Positions 1,352 to 9,982 of a stretch of DNA of 10,235 bases are shown here, in pieces. Positions within the stretch are counted from its first letter, which is position 1; every line of letters begins with the position of its first letter. This DNA comes from an archaeon (GTDB lineage: Archaea; Micrarchaeota; Micrarchaeia; Norongarragalinales; SBBD01): contig SBBD01000098.1 in NCBI GenBank assembly GCA_005239845.1, positions 1-10,235 on the forward strand. The letters are read 5' to 3'. The notes beneath the pieces were generated by a model, which saw only the letters and a program-made list of their open reading frames with translations, was not told the origin of the DNA and did no database searches. Made by a program: the position numbers and the translations under genes.

Positions 1352-2341
1352 ATGCAACAGGCGTTCGTGTTCACCATGGACGCGCTCTTCGCGCTTTCCG
1401 CCATCGTGCTCTTGAGCACGTCGTACGTCGTGCTGAACTCGCTCTTCCTCGAGTCGCAAAAGTTTTCTTCCCTGGACCAAGAGGGGAGGGACTACTTGTA
1501 TTTAGCATATGTACGGGGCTACAGCCTGTCGAACGAGGGGTTCAGAAACTTGACGGGGCACACGCTGTACGGGGGCTTGGGCGAGAAGTACTGGCCTTTT
1601 GACACCGCAGCGGAAGTGGGGGAATGGACGCAGAACGGAACGGGCTGGCACTGGAACAGCTCGTTGGGAGGCACCTACAAGCACAATATATCGATTGTCG
1701 ACGAACTGGCTTACGTCGGCGACGTCAAGTGGAAAAACTATGAAGTGAGTGCGTACGTCGTCCTGCTCTCGGCGACGGCCAACGAGCCCGCGGCCGGAGT
1801 CAGCGCGCGCATCAACGCCACGGGGGGCCGGTATGCCTGCGTACTCTTTGGCAACAGCAAGCTTACGCTGTTAAAGCTTTCGAGCTGGCTAGAACCATTG
1901 CCACGGTGGACGGCGACGCTGGGCTTGAATGGCTCGAAAACGGTCACCACGGAAGGAGACCCCGGCCTGATTGGGAAATGGCACTACCTTTCGCTGAACG
2001 TCACCGGCAACTTCGTAAACTGCAGCGCCATCGGTTACGGGGCTACGCTTCAATCGATCGTCTACACGGATCCAACCCCCCTCCGGCGCGGAAGCGCCGG
2101 TTTGGAAGGAACTCAGTACACGGACGCTTTTTTCAACAACGTGAGCATCAAGTACGTGAAAACGCTTCCCCCGTTGAACCCCGACTTCATGGTACGGGCC
2201 AACCTGCACGCCTACCCCGAAGTCTGCCAGTGTGATTTTGTTGAAAGCATGAACTGTACGGTCAAAAAAGAGGAGGCGTGCTTGCGCGCTCAAGAACAGC
2301 TGCTCGCTGCAAACTATACGAACGAGGTCTGGGTGGGATGA
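1352..2341 (+). CDS. Large pilin-like protein with LamG/DUF1080-like jelly-roll region
   Basis: A 329-residue protein. The start MQQAFVFTMDALFALSAIVL is a class III-type leader and single helix (residues 13-32), like its neighbours; an in-frame GTG at 1268, overlapping the previous gene, would add 28 basic residues and cannot be excluded. Residues about 80-270 resemble concanavalin-like jelly-roll domains (LamG/DUF1080/galactocerebrosidase lectin type): WKNYEVSAYVVL strand, then a GVSARINATGGRYACVL pair, KWHYLSLNVTG, a GSAGL turn and a closing AFFNNVSIKYV strand. Those folds usually bind glycans, so an adhesin or tip role is plausible. It has 11 N-glycosylation sequons and six cysteines, four of them clustered after residue 290. 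Its TGA overlaps the next ATG (ATGA). The domain call rests on pattern resemblance only. Confidence 0.75.
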   Translation: MQQAFVFTMDALFALSAIVLLSTSYVVLNSLFLESQKFSSLDQEGRDYLYLAYVRGYSLSNEGFRNLTGHTLYGGLGEKYWPFDTAAEVGEWTQNGTGWHWNSSLGGTYKHNISIVDELAYVGDVKWKNYEVSAYVVLLSATANEPAAGVSARINATGGRYACVLFGNSKLTLLKLSSWLEPLPRWTATLGLNGSKTVTTEGDPGLIGKWHYLSLNVTGNFVNCSAIGYGATLQSIVYTDPTPLRRGSAGLEGTQYTDAFFNNVSIKYVKTLPPLNPDFMVRANLHAYPEVCQCDFVESMNCTVKKEEACLRAQEQLLAANYTNEVWVG

Positions 2342-3000
2342 AAAAGGCCTTCTTTTCGTTTGCCGTGCTCGCCTTCGTGGCCATTGGGTTATTCTTTTTT
2401 GCCAGCCTCGCGTTCGGAGCCAGAGATTACCGCGAAAGCGCGGTCACGAACTTGGAGGCGAGGAACGTGTTCCAACGAACCCAAGACGCGCAGCTCTATG
2501 CGAGCGCTGCCTTGGACGACGCCATCCTGGACACGGCCTTCCGCATCTACAACTGCTCCATCTCGGTTCCCAACGTCAACCCGCCCAGCAACAAATCCAT
2601 TGCTTTCTGCATCGATTTCAACACCAGCGCGAACAGCCTCTCCAGACCCTATCTCTATGCCATACGCAACCTTTCCGGCGACGGCATCACGGTCACCAAC
2701 CAGAGCACGAGCATCAAATGCGATCCCAACGTGCAGGACAACGACCCTTCCCTATTGCCGTACAACTTCAGCCTCAACGTCACCATGAACGTCACCGTCC
2801 TCGTCAACAGCTCGCACGCGACCTCCAGGCAAACCTTCCGATACGCCAAGCGCGTCGACATCGCCTTCCCCAACATGACGTTAGGGACAGGATGGAGCGA
2901 CGCCATCGGACAGTTCCGCTTGTTCATCAACGACACGGGCTACCTCAACGCCTCACGAGTTGGAAGGAACTATACGTGGCACGTGAACTGCTCGGCATGA
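2338..3000 (+). CDS. Sequon-dense pilin-like/secreted protein 4
   Basis: A 220-residue protein starting in an ATGA overlap with the upstream gene. The N-terminus (MKKAFFSFAVLAFVAIGLFF, then FASLAFGARDY) is a basic n-region and one long hydrophobic helix; it lacks the Gly-Gln site, so it may be an uncleaved anchor or ordinary signal peptide. The helix is followed by a polar, probably helical stretch (residues 30-65) and then a beta-rich, Ser/Thr/Asn-rich domain. It carries 14 N-X-S/T sequons, about one per 16 residues, concentrated between residues 76 and 220, and four cysteines. Such density strongly suggests a heavily N-glycosylated surface protein. It is the last clear member of the operon. 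No named family is recognised. Confidence 0.75.
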   Translation: MKKAFFSFAVLAFVAIGLFFFASLAFGARDYRESAVTNLEARNVFQRTQDAQLYASAALDDAILDTAFRIYNCSISVPNVNPPSNKSIAFCIDFNTSANSLSRPYLYAIRNLSGDGITVTNQSTSIKCDPNVQDNDPSLLPYNFSLNVTMNVTVLVNSSHATSRQTFRYAKRVDIAFPNMTLGTGWSDAIGQFRLFINDTGYLNASRVGRNYTWHVNCSA

Positions 3001-3838: not shown

Positions 3839-3860
3839 CTCGTCTTCCATGGGGTTTTTC

Positions 3861-4406
3861 ATGCGCCTCCTGCTGGTGGAACTCGAACGGCATTTCCCCT
3901 TGCTCACGAAACTGAAGCAGCCGCTCGCGGAAACGTTCGGCTTCGAAGTGGAAGTGGCGCGGGAAATTTATGCGCCAGCCTACGGCGCGTTTAATGCCGC
4001 TCGCTCGCAATGGGACGGGGAAAACCTGTTGCGCCAGCTTTCCTCCGCCTTCCAGCACGCGCCCTACAGCGCGGTGCTCGCCTTCTTTCCCTACGACCTC
4101 TACGCCAAAGGATACCGGCGCGCGTTCGGCATCGCGGAAAACAACGGAAAAGTGGCCGTAGTGGCGTATCATTACTTGGACCCAGCCCTCCACGGCAATC
4201 CAGACGAAGAATTGTTTTTGCGCCGTCTTGTGAAGAAAAGCGTGCACGAAATCGGCCATGTCATCGGGCTGCCGCACTGCACGCGTCCCTACTGCGTCAT
4301 GAACTTTGCGCGCACGCTCCTGTTTCTGGACCGGAAGCAAGCCGCATTTTGCAGCAAGTGCCGGTTTCTTCTCGGAGCCCAACGCCCCGCGGAATCCGTA
4401 GACTAA
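3861..4406 (+). CDS. amzA: Archaemetzincin, zinc metalloprotease
   Basis: A 181-residue protein of the archaemetzincin family (metzincin-clan, soluble, zinc-dependent peptidases found in archaea and vertebrates; natural substrates poorly known). The signature is complete: HEIGHVIGLPHC at residues 129-140 supplies the HExxHxxGxxH zinc site with Glu130 as the catalytic base. It is followed by CTRPYCVMNF with the Met-turn at 147, and by a CSKC pair at 164-167. The four cysteines (140, 145, 164, 167) are the family's second, structural zinc site. I chose the ATG at 3861 (MRLLLVELERHF) because family members start with this first beta strand and the TATA-like box is spaced for it; the ATG at 3849 adds MGFF. 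Length is normal for the family. It is convergent with the minus-strand TBP genes. Confidence 0.93.
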   Translation: MRLLLVELERHFPLLTKLKQPLAETFGFEVEVAREIYAPAYGAFNAARSQWDGENLLRQLSSAFQHAPYSAVLAFFPYDLYAKGYRRAFGIAENNGKVAVVAYHYLDPALHGNPDEELFLRRLVKKSVHEIGHVIGLPHCTRPYCVMNFARTLLFLDRKQAAFCSKCRFLLGAQRPAESVD

Positions 4407-4766: not shown

Positions 4767-5060
4767 TTATTCAATGAAGTCTTCCAGCAACTCCACGGCT
4801 CTTCGGATGCTTTGCTCGATCTGCTTCTCGCTTTTCGCGCCGCTGCAGATCACTTTCCCGTTCTTGAAGAGCAGGAGCGTCGTGCCGATTTCCTTCAACC
4901 GCATGATGGCTCCCGGAAACTGTTCGGGCTCGTATTCCACGTTGTCCACTTCCATGGCGATGTTGAACAAGTCGAGTTCCACGTTCAAGTTCGCGGAAGC
5001 CACGATGTTTTCCACTTTAAAACTCATGTTGATGCGTTTGTGTTTCTTTTTCTTGGGCAT
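4767..5060 (-). CDS. tbp: Half-length (single-repeat) TATA-binding protein
   Basis: A 97-residue protein that is one complete TBP repeat. Archaeal TBP normally has two repeats in about 180 residues, bending promoter DNA and recruiting TFB and RNA polymerase. Here residues 14-97 run VENIVASANL, VEYEPEQFPG, TTLLLFKNGK and VICSGAKSE, covering all five strands and both helices. The DNA-contact features are present: Asn18 in VENIV, Phe48 in QFPG and Phe65 in LLLF, the two positions whose phenylalanines kink DNA. It then stops (TAA); no second repeat follows in any frame before the next gene. The motifs mix repeat-1 (ENIVAS) and repeat-2 (YEPEQFPG, CSGAKSE) character. An 11-residue basic leader (MPKKKKHKRIN) precedes the usual start; the ATG at 5027 is the alternative. 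It would have to dimerise to make a full saddle. Whether the genome also has a full TBP is unknown. Confidence 0.88.
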   Translation of the reverse strand: MPKKKKHKRINMSFKVENIVASANLNVELDLFNIAMEVDNVEYEPEQFPGAIMRLKEIGTTLLLFKNGKVICSGAKSEKQIEQSIRRAVELLEDFIE

Positions 5061-5078: not shown

Positions 5079-5101
5079 GGGTATTTAAAGGGCCTTTATA
5101 A
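5079..5101 (-). promoter_or_regulatory. Twin, palindromic TATA region of the tbp gene
   Basis: On the minus strand CTTTATAAAGG is followed directly by CCCTTTAAATAC. The TTTAAATA box is centred about 23 bases before the ATG at 5060, suiting a leaderless start. The centre, TAAAGG-G-CCTTTA (5086-5098), is a perfect 13-bp palindrome, so boxes can be read on both strands. Confidence 0.5.
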
Positions 5102-5152
5102 AGAGGTAGGTTTTCAAAAAGCGGCTCTGGGCACCTGCAAAACAGTTGGTTT

Positions 5153-6092: not shown

Positions 6093-6368
6093 ATGAAGCG
6101 CAGCCATGGAAGGAACGTGGGGAGAAGCCGAAAGCTCCGCAGCAAGGGCAGGCTGTCCATGCCCCGCCAGTTGGCAGAATTCCATGAAGGAGAACGCGTC
6201 CGCATTGACATCAATCCTTCGTTCGGGAAGGGCATGCCGCACCTGCGGTTCAACCACCGTGCAGCAGAAGTAGTTGGAAAGCAAGGCAGGAGCACGAAAG
6301 TCGCGTTTTTGGATGGAAACAAGGAAAAGCACTTGGTGGTGGCCAACGTGCACTTAGTCAAGGCGTAA
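6093..6368 (+). CDS. rpl21e: 50S ribosomal protein eL21 (L21e)
   Basis: A 91-residue basic protein. The order of motifs matches archaeal/eukaryotic eL21, a large-subunit protein with an SH3-like barrel: basic RNA-binding N-terminus (MKRSHGRNVGRSRKLRSKGR), FHEGERVRIDINPSFGKGMP, then HLRFNHRAAEVVGKQG, and a final strand ending HLVVANVHLVKA. Length is close to the usual 95-97. The ATG at 6093 follows TTAGGGGA, a plausible ribosome binding site. It heads the well-known archaeal gene order eL21 - rpoF - DUF655. The 246 bases upstream hold the divergent membrane-protein promoter and a GGAGG at 6020-6024 with no ATG behind it; a TTTTTAATG at 5989-5997 is a weak promoter candidate. Confidence 0.93.
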   Translation: MKRSHGRNVGRSRKLRSKGRLSMPRQLAEFHEGERVRIDINPSFGKGMPHLRFNHRAAEVVGKQGRSTKVAFLDGNKEKHLVVANVHLVKA

Positions 6369-6447
6369 AAAAACGAGGGCAACAACAGGGAGGAAAGCGG
6401 GACGTTGGAAGAGGTATGAAAAAAGCCGCGTATTAAGGTGTCAGGAT

Positions 6448-6777
6448 ATGCAGCAAGTCGGCGAGAAGTTTTTGACGGTGGAGGAAGCGAAGGAGCTGCT
6501 GGAAAAGCGCCGCAAGGACGCGGAGCTCGGCTACGAACAGCAGAACGCCCTCGACTATCTGGAGAAGTTCGCGAAGCTCTCGAAAAGCGAGGCGGAAAAA
6601 ATGCGGAAAGAGCTCGAGGCGCTCGGCATCCTCTCGGAAAAACAGGTCGTGTGGCTCGTGAACGTCGCGCCCTCGAAAGAAGAGACCGTAAAGGCGATTT
6701 TGGGGCAGGAAAAGCTGGAGCTGGGCACGGAGCAAGTGAAGGAAGTCCTCAAGATTTGCAAGAAGTACGCAAAATAA
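6448..6777 (+). CDS. rpoF: DNA-directed RNA polymerase subunit Rpo4 (RpoF, Rpb4 homologue)
   Basis: A 109-residue, mostly helical protein. It matches archaeal Rpo4/F, which with Rpo7/E forms the stalk of RNA polymerase that helps open-complex formation and binds the emerging RNA. Visible features are FLTVEEAKELLEKRRKDAEL at the start (Rpo7-binding tip), QQNALDYLEKFAKLSKSEAE (helical middle) and the HRDC-like end LGILSEKQVVWLVNVAPSKE then TEQVKEVLKICKKYAK. The length is that of the family. It sits between eL21 and DUF655 in the standard archaeal order, 79 bases after eL21 and 10 before DUF655. Confidence 0.93.
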   Translation: MQQVGEKFLTVEEAKELLEKRRKDAELGYEQQNALDYLEKFAKLSKSEAEKMRKELEALGILSEKQVVWLVNVAPSKEETVKAILGQEKLELGTEQVKEVLKICKKYAK

Positions 6778-6787
6778 GGCGCTTTCC

Positions 6788-7468
6788 ATGTTCCGCAAGG
6801 AAGAGCACGCGCTCGTATTGGACTTTTTGCCTGCAGGAAAAGCGGGAGAAGCAAGGCAGGAACCCACGGCACAAGTTGTGGGCGACCAGTATTTTACGCT
6901 CTTGGAACTCGTCACGAAGCCCGGCATTCGATTGAACGTCATGGATCGCGTGTATATTGGAAAGGGAGTCCGGGACCAAATCGAGCGCATCAAGTGCCGC
7001 ATTTTATACAACCAGCTTACGGCCTCTTCGCAGCAGCAAGTCGTGGAGGCCGTCCGCCACGTCGTAAAGACGCGGGAAGCCGACTTCGTGAACTTTTTGA
7101 ACAAAGCAGGGCCGGTGAACATCCGCTTGCACGCCCTCGAACTTTTGCCGAACATCGGGAAAAAGAATTTGGAGGCGCTGCTTGCAGAACGCGAGAAAGG
7201 CCTCTTCCAGGACTTCGAGGACATCCGCAACCGCGTGCCGCACTTGGTTCACGTGGAGGAAAGCTTCCTGCAGCGCATCCTTGCAGAGCTCAAGGGCCAG
7301 GAGAAATACCACTTGTTCGTCAAGATTCCCCCCAAGGAGGGGGACGAGGGCGAGCGCTACCACCATGACCAGTACGGGGATCGCGGGCGTTACGGAGAGC
7401 GGGAACGCGGAGGATACGGCGACCGGGGCTACCGCGGGGAACGGCGCTTTGACCGGCCCAGATACTAG
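6788..7468 (+). CDS. DUF655 family nucleic-acid-binding protein with RGG/YG-rich tail
   Basis: A 226-residue protein. Residues 1-180 match the archaeal DUF655 (COG1491) family: EEHALVLDFLPAG start, QYFTLLEL, MDRVYIGKGVRDQIERIKCR (OB-like strand region), TREADFVNFLNKAGPVNIRL, and a helix-hairpin-helix LELLPNIGKKNLEALL at 117-132, followed by FEDIRNRV and a YHLFVKI finish. HhH plus OB-like segments imply RNA or DNA binding; the gene's fixed place after rpoF suggests a role in transcription or ribosome biogenesis, not proven. Unusually, residues 185-226 form a low-complexity tail of Arg, Gly, Tyr, Asp and Glu (DRGRYGERERGGYGDRGYRG), like eukaryotic RGG boxes. The usual next gene, rsmA/ksgA, is absent here. 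Confidence 0.88.
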   Translation: MFRKEEHALVLDFLPAGKAGEARQEPTAQVVGDQYFTLLELVTKPGIRLNVMDRVYIGKGVRDQIERIKCRILYNQLTASSQQQVVEAVRHVVKTREADFVNFLNKAGPVNIRLHALELLPNIGKKNLEALLAEREKGLFQDFEDIRNRVPHLVHVEESFLQRILAELKGQEKYHLFVKIPPKEGDEGERYHHDQYGDRGRYGERERGGYGDRGYRGERRFDRPRY

Positions 7469-8476: not shown

Positions 8477-9982
8477 ATGCCCATGCAGTTCAAGGTCCGC
8501 ATCTTCGAGGTCGAACAGGGCCAGAACGAGATTGTCTTGAACGAGGAGAGTGGAGCCGCCTTGGGCATCAACCACTTCGACCGCGTGTCCGTGCGCTCGC
8601 ATTCCAGGAAAGCGATGGCTATCGCGGACTTTTCCCATGAACTCATACGGTCGCACGAAATCGGCGTGTTTGAAGAGGTCGCCAACCAGTTGCAGGTAAA
8701 GAACGGGGACTGGGTGTTCGTGGAGCCCGTGCACCGCCCGGAAAGCCTCGAGTACATCAAGAAGAAGCTAGACGGCAGGACGTTGACGGGAAGCGAAATC
8801 GGCACCATCATCGGGGACCTGATGCAGGAAACGCTTTCCTCTACAGAACTGGCGGCCTTCATTTCCGCCATCTACACGAAAGGCATGAGCGTGGAGGAAA
8901 CCGCGGAGCTCACAAACGCCATCTGCGAGAGCGGCGACGTATTGAATTTCGGGCAGCAGCTCGTCGTCAGCACGCACAGCATCGGAGGCGTTGCAGGAGA
9001 CCGCACCAGCATGATCGTAGTCCCCATCCTTGCCTCGCTGGGGCTGAAAATCCCGAAGACGGCGAGCCGCGCCATCTCTTCCGCGAGCGGAACGGCGGAC
9101 GCCATGGAAGTGCTGACGAACGTCACGCTGGACCTCCAGCAAATCAAGCGCGTCGTGGATAAGACAAACGGGTGTTTGGTGTGGGGAGGCGCGGTCCGCC
9201 TGGCTTCCGCTGACGATAAACTCATCCGCATCAGGAATCCCTTGCACTTGGACCCCAAGCCCTTGCTGTTGAGCAGCATTCTCGCAAAAAAGAAGGCGGA
9301 AGGCGCCAAATACGTGATTATCGACATCCCCGTAGGGTCAGGAGCGAAGATCGAGGACGTGGAGGAAGGCAAGGCCCTGGCAAGAGATTTCGAGAACTTG
9401 GGCGCGCACTTGGGCATCAAGGTGCAGTGCCTCATTTCGGATGGCAGCGAGCCGCTGACGCACGCTATAGGCTCCGCCTTGGAGGCCAAGCTGGTGCTGG
9501 AGACGCTGGAAGAAAAGCGCATGAACCTCTTGCTGGAAAAATCGTGCTTGATGGCGGGGGTGATGCTCCATCTGGTGAAAGGGGTCAGCAAGGAAGAGGG
9601 CTATCGCATGGCGTTGCAGCAAGTGCATTCGGGGGCGGCGCTGGAGAAGCTGCAGCAAATCATCGTGGAGCAGGGAGGCAAGCGCGTCACTTCGAAAGAC
9701 GTCAAGACGGGAAGGCTGCACGCTGTCCTGAAGGCGAGGGAGAGGGGAAAGATTTCGCACGTGGACAACCGCGCCGTCTCGCAATTGTGCCGCATGCTCG
9801 GAGCCCCCCAGGATAAGGGCGCGGGCGTTTTGCTGAAAGCGGCGAAAGGCCAGCACGTGGAGAAAGGGCAGGAGCTCGCGGTACTCGTTTCCAACAGCAA
9901 GGAAAAACTCGCATACGCCTTGCAGCAGACGGAGAACCTGCCGCTCGTCCAAGTGCAGCGCATCATTATCGACGTCGTATGA
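8477..9982 (+). CDS. deoA: AMP phosphorylase (archaeal DeoA-type nucleoside monophosphate phosphorylase)
   Basis: A 501-residue cytosolic enzyme, full length for archaeal AMP phosphorylase (about 500). It converts AMP (also CMP, UMP) and phosphate into the free base and ribose-1,5-bisphosphate, which R15P isomerase and type III RuBisCO take to 3-phosphoglycerate. Residues 1-85 are the archaeal-specific N-terminal domain absent from bacterial thymidine phosphorylase. The glycosyltransferase family 3 core follows, with THSIGGVAGDRTSMIVVPIL (166-184, phosphate and substrate loop), KTASRAISSASGTADAMEVL (194-213), WGGAVRLASADDKLIRIRNP (236-255) and DIPVGSGAKI (283-292). The last part holds the alpha/beta domain with HVDNRAVSQLCRMLGAP and GAGVLLKAAKGQHVEKGQEL. 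ATG 8483 is an alternative start. All expected motifs are intact. Confidence 0.93.
   Translation: MPMQFKVRIFEVEQGQNEIVLNEESGAALGINHFDRVSVRSHSRKAMAIADFSHELIRSHEIGVFEEVANQLQVKNGDWVFVEPVHRPESLEYIKKKLDGRTLTGSEIGTIIGDLMQETLSSTELAAFISAIYTKGMSVEETAELTNAICESGDVLNFGQQLVVSTHSIGGVAGDRTSMIVVPILASLGLKIPKTASRAISSASGTADAMEVLTNVTLDLQQIKRVVDKTNGCLVWGGAVRLASADDKLIRIRNPLHLDPKPLLLSSILAKKKAEGAKYVIIDIPVGSGAKIEDVEEGKALARDFENLGAHLGIKVQCLISDGSEPLTHAIGSALEAKLVLETLEEKRMNLLLEKSCLMAGVMLHLVKGVSKEEGYRMALQQVHSGAALEKLQQIIVEQGGKRVTSKDVKTGRLHAVLKARERGKISHVDNRAVSQLCRMLGAPQDKGAGVLLKAAKGQHVEKGQELAVLVSNSKEKLAYALQQTENLPLVQVQRIIIDVV

Follow-up and report, generated by a model that had tools for sequence, protein, structure and literature searches.

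A gene encoding a TATA-binding protein (TBP) with a single lobe, referred to here as half-TBP, was identified on the minus strand of the window, a 10,235-nt stretch of DNA from a Norongarragalinales archaeon. The gene, its parts, its likely promoter and its conserved neighbours are as follows.

4767..5060, minus strand: gene of the single-lobe TBP, 97 aa, with both its ATG start and its stop codon present (open reading frame, Pfam, AF2 model and structural superposition)
4776..5024, minus strand: TBP lobe, residues 13-95, matching positions 1-85 of 85 in Pfam PF00352
4866..4868, minus strand: F65, second Phe position of the lobe, invariant in alignment A1
4911..4934, minus strand: YEPEQFPG stirrup, residues 43-50, including F48, invariant in alignment A1
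5025..5060, minus strand: basic leader MPKKKKHKRINM, read from the sequence
5080..5097, minus strand: likely half-TBP promoter, AAAGGCCC TTTAAATA CC, with the TATA 29 nt before the ATG (G001 matrix, 8.2 bits)
6093..7468, plus strand: conserved neighbours L21e, Rpb4 and DUF655, divergent from the TBP gene (Pfam)

Half-TBP contains one complete TBP lobe

The half-TBP matches PF00352 in a single stretch with 99.8 bits (cut-off 22.9, E-value 7.6e-29). Because the profile is covered once, from position 1 to position 85 of 85, the protein has one complete lobe and nothing beyond it. The two tandem lobes (~180 aa) of the archaeal TBP class are absent, and the 97 aa of half-TBP correspond to one lobe. 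N18, F48, F65 and the YEPEQFPG motif (residues 43-50) are invariant across the 43 sequences of alignment A1. The AF2 model, predicted from 43 sequences, has a pLDDT of 92.9 and superposes onto one lobe of Methanocaldococcus jannaschii TBP (2z8u) with an rmsd of 0.9 Å over 80 columns. Sequence searches of the PDB returned 35 distinct matches, nearly all named TBP or TBP fusion, and each was hit in two stretches, for example 2z8u at 68 and 64 bits. Ten NCBIfam models of two-lobe TBPs were also matched, all below their cut-offs (best, 87.4 bits vs 255), with the best alignment in the first half of four models and in the second half of six. The first-pass annotation had described a complete single TBP repeat followed by a stop, with mixed repeat-1 and repeat-2 features. 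The single full coverage of PF00352, the 97-aa length and the lobe fold of the AF2 model bear out the former, and the four-to-six split of the NCBIfam models the latter. Half-TBP is a real and complete member of the TBP-lobe superfamily and not a fragment.

F48 and F65 are presumably the DNA-kinking Phe positions, and from residue mapping we take the Glu residues in YEPEQFPG to be those that contact TFB in canonical repeat 2. A TFB contact role of the YEPEQFPG-type repeat-2 stirrup is described in the available text of PMC7221094. Lys/Arg-rich leaders are found in relatives too, for example L058, L059 and L157. The basic leader may, as the first-pass annotation suggested, add to DNA affinity. 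Assignment to Norongarragalinales follows the names given at source to two proteins with 80-84% identity to half-TBP (P0061 and P0102), and assignment to Micrarchaeota follows the titles of relatives' records. In public records, some of these proteins are named TATA-box-binding protein and others are hypothetical.

Locus conservation and selection

Twenty-four close named loci (L058-L081), assigned to the order by 77-94% identity and including L078, which is titled Marsarchaeota, were compared with the half-TBP locus. All 24 encode a single-lobed TBP. The genes for L21e, DUF655 and Rpb4 lie near TBP in 22, 21 and 20 of the 24 loci, respectively. In the nearest relative, L058, the half-TBP gene ends at the same point and is followed by the same small membrane-protein gene. 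Over 76 codons, half-TBP and L058 differ by a dN of 0.036 and a dS of 0.75 (dN/dS ~0.05), one of eight pairs tried, five of which had saturated dS. The half-TBP gene is under purifying selection.

A frameshift, an assembly break or a decaying gene would make the single lobe an artefact, and the first-pass annotation had named a second repeat nearby or a two-repeat gene in relatives as evidence against its reading. Neither the surroundings of the gene nor the rest of the assembly yielded a second repeat, none of the 24 loci has two repeats, and the gene end is shared with L058. Frameshift, assembly break and pseudogene are ruled out by the 24 single-lobe loci, the synteny with conserved neighbours and the dN/dS, and the probability that we leave to an artefact is negligible.

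Further genes lie on the plus strand of the window. The product of 3849-4406 resembles archaemetzincin (90.6 bits with Pfam M54 and 132.3 bits with NCBIfam archmetzin, below the cut-off of 145), and a gene of this kind is found near half-TBP in L058 and L059 as well. The products of 371-949, 943-1275 and 2278-3000 have N-terminal hydrophobic stretches without a Pfam match and are possibly pilin-like or secreted. Positions 1268-2341 have a sub-threshold lectin-like match, and 8477-9982 encode an AMP phosphorylase (TIGR03327, 550.6 bits, above cut-off).

Half-TBP as the only TBP found in the order

The source genome of half-TBP, G000, is a 70% complete draft. Half-TBP is the single PF00352 match in its assembly, and no second TBP was found there. 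A loose first-pass search with PF00352 (E-value up to 10) was also performed on a set of 29 Norongarragalinales genomes, all metagenome drafts. Exactly one TBP match above the cut-off, always single-lobed, is present in 26 of the 29, including all eight genomes of at least 90% completeness. The other three, 62-79% complete, have no real TBP match. No consistent second TBP gene was detected in the order by this search, and the scattered additional matches scored below 20 bits. The first-pass annotation had made part of its argument depend on half-TBP being the only TBP, and this agrees with the lack of a full-length TBP both in its own assembly (70% complete) and in the 29 genomes of the order. 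According to the available text of PMC8407392, TFB, TBP and several polymerase subunits are conserved in ~88.8% of the tested DPANN genomes.

It could be argued that half-TBP is a side paralogue and that the drafts lack the true TBP with its two lobes, given that the genomes come from metagenomes and G000 is 70% complete. However, the eight order genomes of at least 90% completeness and the single-contig genome G160 of another family contain the half only, and the complete-chromosome genome CP058998.1 has three halves without a two-lobe TBP. We consider a side paralogue very improbable. These comparisons of sequence suggest that half-TBP is the general TBP of this Norongarragalinales archaeon.

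Lobe arrangements across Micrarchaeota and Diapherotrites

The class set and the phylum set comprise the same 301 Micrarchaeota genomes, of which 276 have a TBP match. The arrangement in each genome was read from match counts and open-frame lengths among the matches listed. Among these, lone halves occur in the order, in families f9, f11, f14, f17, f19 and f26 and in part of f12, f10 (from seven genomes read) and part of f14 have two separate halves, and fused two-lobe TBPs occur in f8, f13, f15, f16, f18, f20 and others. A lone single-lobe gene was found in 24 of the 96 genomes with at least 90% completeness and at most 5% contamination, again among the matches listed. A search for viral copies returned one short partial match.

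Several genomes encode more than one single-lobe TBP. In each of the seven f10 genomes, including the single-contig G056, two single-lobe TBPs that differ consistently from each other are encoded far apart (L138-L151), and this pair is a candidate heterodimer. Descent of the f10 halves from a normal TBP split into its repeats 1 and 2 is disfavoured, as they are sisters in the lobe tree (92/83), weakly supported. The complete chromosome of Fermentimicrarchaeum limneticum (CP058998.1) has three single-lobe TBP genes (L100, L101 and L112). In G307, a diverged half-TBP (L203, 105 aa, 42 bits) is encoded beside an ordinary half-TBP gene.

In the neighbouring phylum around G308 (a Diapherotrites record), 49 of 55 genomes have a match above the cut-off, mainly two-lobed, and G319 has a lone half. 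This phylum also encodes a separate family of diverged TBP-lobe proteins of ~95 aa (L191-L202; consensus MELxDFTGKPC...YEFLPKK...SLFxSGKI), usually alongside a two-lobe TBP. Two scanned members scored 25.2 and 28.8 bits, above the Pfam TBP cut-off.

The two repeats of the fused TBPs share 52-83% identity in 34 of 35 proteins, compared with 43-53% in three canonical archaea; L088 (undetermined stretches and a broken frame) and L170 were left out of this comparison, the Diapherotrites rows include L121, which is titled Falkowbacteria, and L117 and L131 in the identity list bear other titles. The 35th protein, L031, with 44% repeat identity, is a canonical TBP in the Micrarchaeota genome G287 and was set aside. 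It is most likely contamination, as its sequence matches a protein labelled Nitrososphaerota at 100% identity.

TFB and promoter motifs

TFIIB repeats were detected in 23 of the 29 order genomes, and no match was found in the G000 assembly (70% complete). Two TFBs of the order were scanned with Pfam, and each contains a Zn ribbon and two repeats. TFB in the order thus appears to be an ordinary asymmetric two-cyclin protein.

A promoter motif was found de novo in 302 upstream regions of G001, a genome of the same family that also encodes half-TBP (LL 392.5 vs 89.9 for one shuffled set). The motif is present in ~57% of the 302 regions, begins near -38 and consists of a CRAAA-like BRE, a short GC-rich spacer and TTTWWAAA. 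The BRE-like part is on the upstream side only. The 8-bp TATA box is near-palindromic, with a mean JSD of 0.021 to its own reverse complement. With the G001 matrix, the likely promoter of half-TBP itself was located at 5080..5097, at a spacing predicted to be leaderless. The same near-palindromic site scores 12.6 bits on the plus strand. An alternative minus-strand site with its TATA at 5102 scores 9.5 bits but is 42 nt from the ATG.

Symmetry of the TATA box as a mark of half-TBP genomes was rejected, since the motif of the fused-TBP genome G062 is symmetric too and those of the half-TBP genome G036 and of the order genome G004 are less so. The mean JSD is 0.044 in G062, 0.035 to 0.038 in half-TBP G160, 0.10 in half-TBP G036 and 0.038 in split-TBP G278. 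The fused-TBP genome G316 has a weak and less symmetric motif (0.127), and the motif of G004, a member of the order, is weak and not symmetric (0.15-0.30). In a wider 28-column fit, G001 has a mean JSD of 0.046 and G062 one of 0.021, and their 5-95% ranges over 60 bootstraps overlap (0.028-0.075 and 0.027-0.087, respectively). The upstream regions of G056 yielded a Shine-Dalgarno-like motif and no promoter motif.

In G160, G036, G278 and G062, the motif looks palindromic beyond the TATA box, in the order AA, 2-3 bases, TATA, 2-3 bases and TT. This extended palindrome is not visible in the upstream regions of G001 or G004. It could reflect two-sided TFB contacts or bidirectional promoters.

The first-pass annotation had expected the symmetry of a half-TBP pair to have consequences for promoter direction. 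In G001 this is not seen, as the upstream BRE is kept and TFB is ordinary. The expectation may still apply to G160 and G036, half-TBP genomes of another family, in which the motif looks two-sided, with a TT behind the TATA box opposite the AA in front of it. A direction signal confined to the upstream side is therefore not general. The upstream BRE in G001, together with the ordinary TFB in the order, suggests that direction can come from TFB and the BRE. The available text of PMC7289017 likewise attributes the orientation of archaeal promoters to TFB and the BRE.

Proposed assembly of half-TBP

We propose that half-TBP is the general TBP, that it works as a symmetric homodimer and that direction comes from TFB and the BRE, and we regard this reading as probable. 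In Norongarragalinales, the general TBP would have been cut down to one lobe, and two identical chains would pair via the face that joins the two lobes of a normal TBP. The resulting homodimer would sit astride the 8-bp TATA box as a symmetric saddle. Since each stirrup would bear the TFB-contact signature, either one could serve as docking site for a normal TFB. TFB would then read the upstream BRE, by which direction would be fixed and RNA polymerase recruited. We infer homodimerisation, DNA binding and bending, TFB docking and direction from the BRE alike, and the homodimer would be the simplest working form of half-TBP. A normal saddle is predicted for a fused relative whose repeats are 83% identical, which suggests that near-identical lobes are compatible with a saddle.

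Half-TBP might instead form an asymmetric saddle with a second lobe from another locus, one so strongly diverged that it has escaped recognition. A heterodimer may be in use in some lineages, given the two distinct half genes that f10 genomes carry far apart; G307 has a half together with the diverged half L203, and Diapherotrites carry a separate lobe-like protein of ~95 aa. Within the order, however, PF00352 (E-value up to 10) recovers no consistent second gene. A model of the ~95-aa family was searched against the 29 order genomes (E-value up to 1, loose first-pass) and returned half-TBP itself in 26 genomes plus five scattered weak matches. As this model recovers only half-TBP consistently, the ~95-aa protein is not the missing lobe there. 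We consider a heterodimer improbable for half-TBP.

A monomer, in which one lobe occupies half of the TATA box and the remaining promoter is held by TFB or RNA polymerase, appears less probable still. TFB in other archaea contacts DNA on both sides of the TATA and could compensate in this way. Such contacts flanking the TATA on both sides are reported in the available text of PMC8131849. Against a monomer, the TATA element of G001 extends over all 8 bp and is near-palindromic, as would suit two lobes, and the two scanned TFBs look ordinary. The symmetric homodimer is preferred over both alternatives.

Origin of the single lobe

TBP is described in the available text of PMC7221094 as two repeats that arose by duplication and fusion, and in that of PMC4910066 the first and second repeats fall into separate clades across 34 species. 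An unrooted tree of 77 lobes, including those of six canonical archaeal TBPs, was constructed from 80 columns. Each set of identical lobes is represented by one copy, for which reason its 77 rows lack L059, L101 and L082; L209 is not among the rows either. Every lobe from Micrarchaeota and Diapherotrites falls on one side of a split (97/94), with canonical repeats 1 and 2 on the other. In L106 (99/94), L154 (98/87) and L153 (91/97), the two repeats of one protein pair with each other, and the five halves of the order in the tree form one group (96/96). Because of this within-protein pairing and the split between canonical and Micrarchaeota/Diapherotrites lobes, the tree, which has few columns, an unsettled bootstrap and long canonical branches, favours a return to the single lobe, from which re-duplication then occurred repeatedly. 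The first-pass annotation had likened half-TBP to the pre-duplication ancestor; the likeness holds as an analogy, while the lobe tree leans towards a single lobe that arose secondarily.

We tentatively place this return in the common stock of Micrarchaeota and Diapherotrites, with the fused, two-gene and three-gene forms rebuilt several times from a homodimeric half, a history to which we give slightly less than an even chance. Alternatively, the single lobe may be primitive and never duplicated, or the likeness of fused repeats may come from gene conversion and not from re-duplication. In an unrooted tree, the 97/94 split looks the same as a pre-duplication origin. One ancient duplication was not rejected in any of four AU tests, in which it was kept for canonical and Diapherotrites lobes (p = 0.171), for all repeats (p = 0.0556), for Micrarchaeota (p = 0.321) or for Micrarchaeota and Diapherotrites (p = 0.202). 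A primitive state, however, would presumably place these archaea outside the other archaea and eukaryotes for TBP. The within-protein repeat pairs in separate lineages (L106 and L154) fit repeated tandem duplication, although conversion would look alike. We consider a primitive or converted lobe rather unlikely. If return and rebuilding is the true history, these archaea replay the TBP duplication and are living stand-ins for its homodimeric ancestor.

Comparison with known systems

TBP is regarded as a pseudo-dimer within one molecule, and an ancestor with a single lobe has so far been a hypothesis only. Such an ancestor, resembling RNase HIII, is regarded as the likely prototype in the available text of PMC12917281. 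No report of a single-lobe TBP in archaea was found in the open-access literature, to which our search extended. A living lineage with one lobe as its only TBP makes the ancestor hypothesis directly testable. Half-TBP also opens the questions of why the two lobes diverged and how direction is set with a symmetric TBP, and Micrarchaeota, in which lobes occur singly, in twos, in threes and fused, lend themselves to comparison.

The N-terminal domain of RNase HIII is a single TBP-like lobe, as in half-TBP, but RNase HIII is not a transcription factor, and its domain is a weak structural match to the half-TBP model (rank 45, E-value 0.41). Poxviral VETF-l and VITF-3, as presented in the available text of PMC12917281, are atypical TBPs with a TFIIB-like partner, as here. 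They have a bipartite or tripartite TBP fold in one chain and are elaborated, whereas half-TBP is reduced. The f10 pairs and the CP058998.1 triplet are single-lobe genes like half-TBP. Unlike the lone half, they comprise two diverged halves (f10) or three halves (CP058998.1) per genome, so that hetero-pairing is possible. The near-symmetric fused TBPs of other Micrarchaeota and Diapherotrites typically have FPGAI and FKNGK in both repeats, motifs common to half-TBP, but differ from it in having two lobes in one ORF, with 52-83% repeat identity. Canonical archaeal TBPs (2z8u, S. acidocaldarius 1mp9 and P. woesei 1ais) share with half-TBP the lobe fold, the Phe positions and YEPEQFPG, and their partner TFB is present in the order. 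They carry two lobes per chain, with repeats 43-53% identical, whereas half-TBP carries one.
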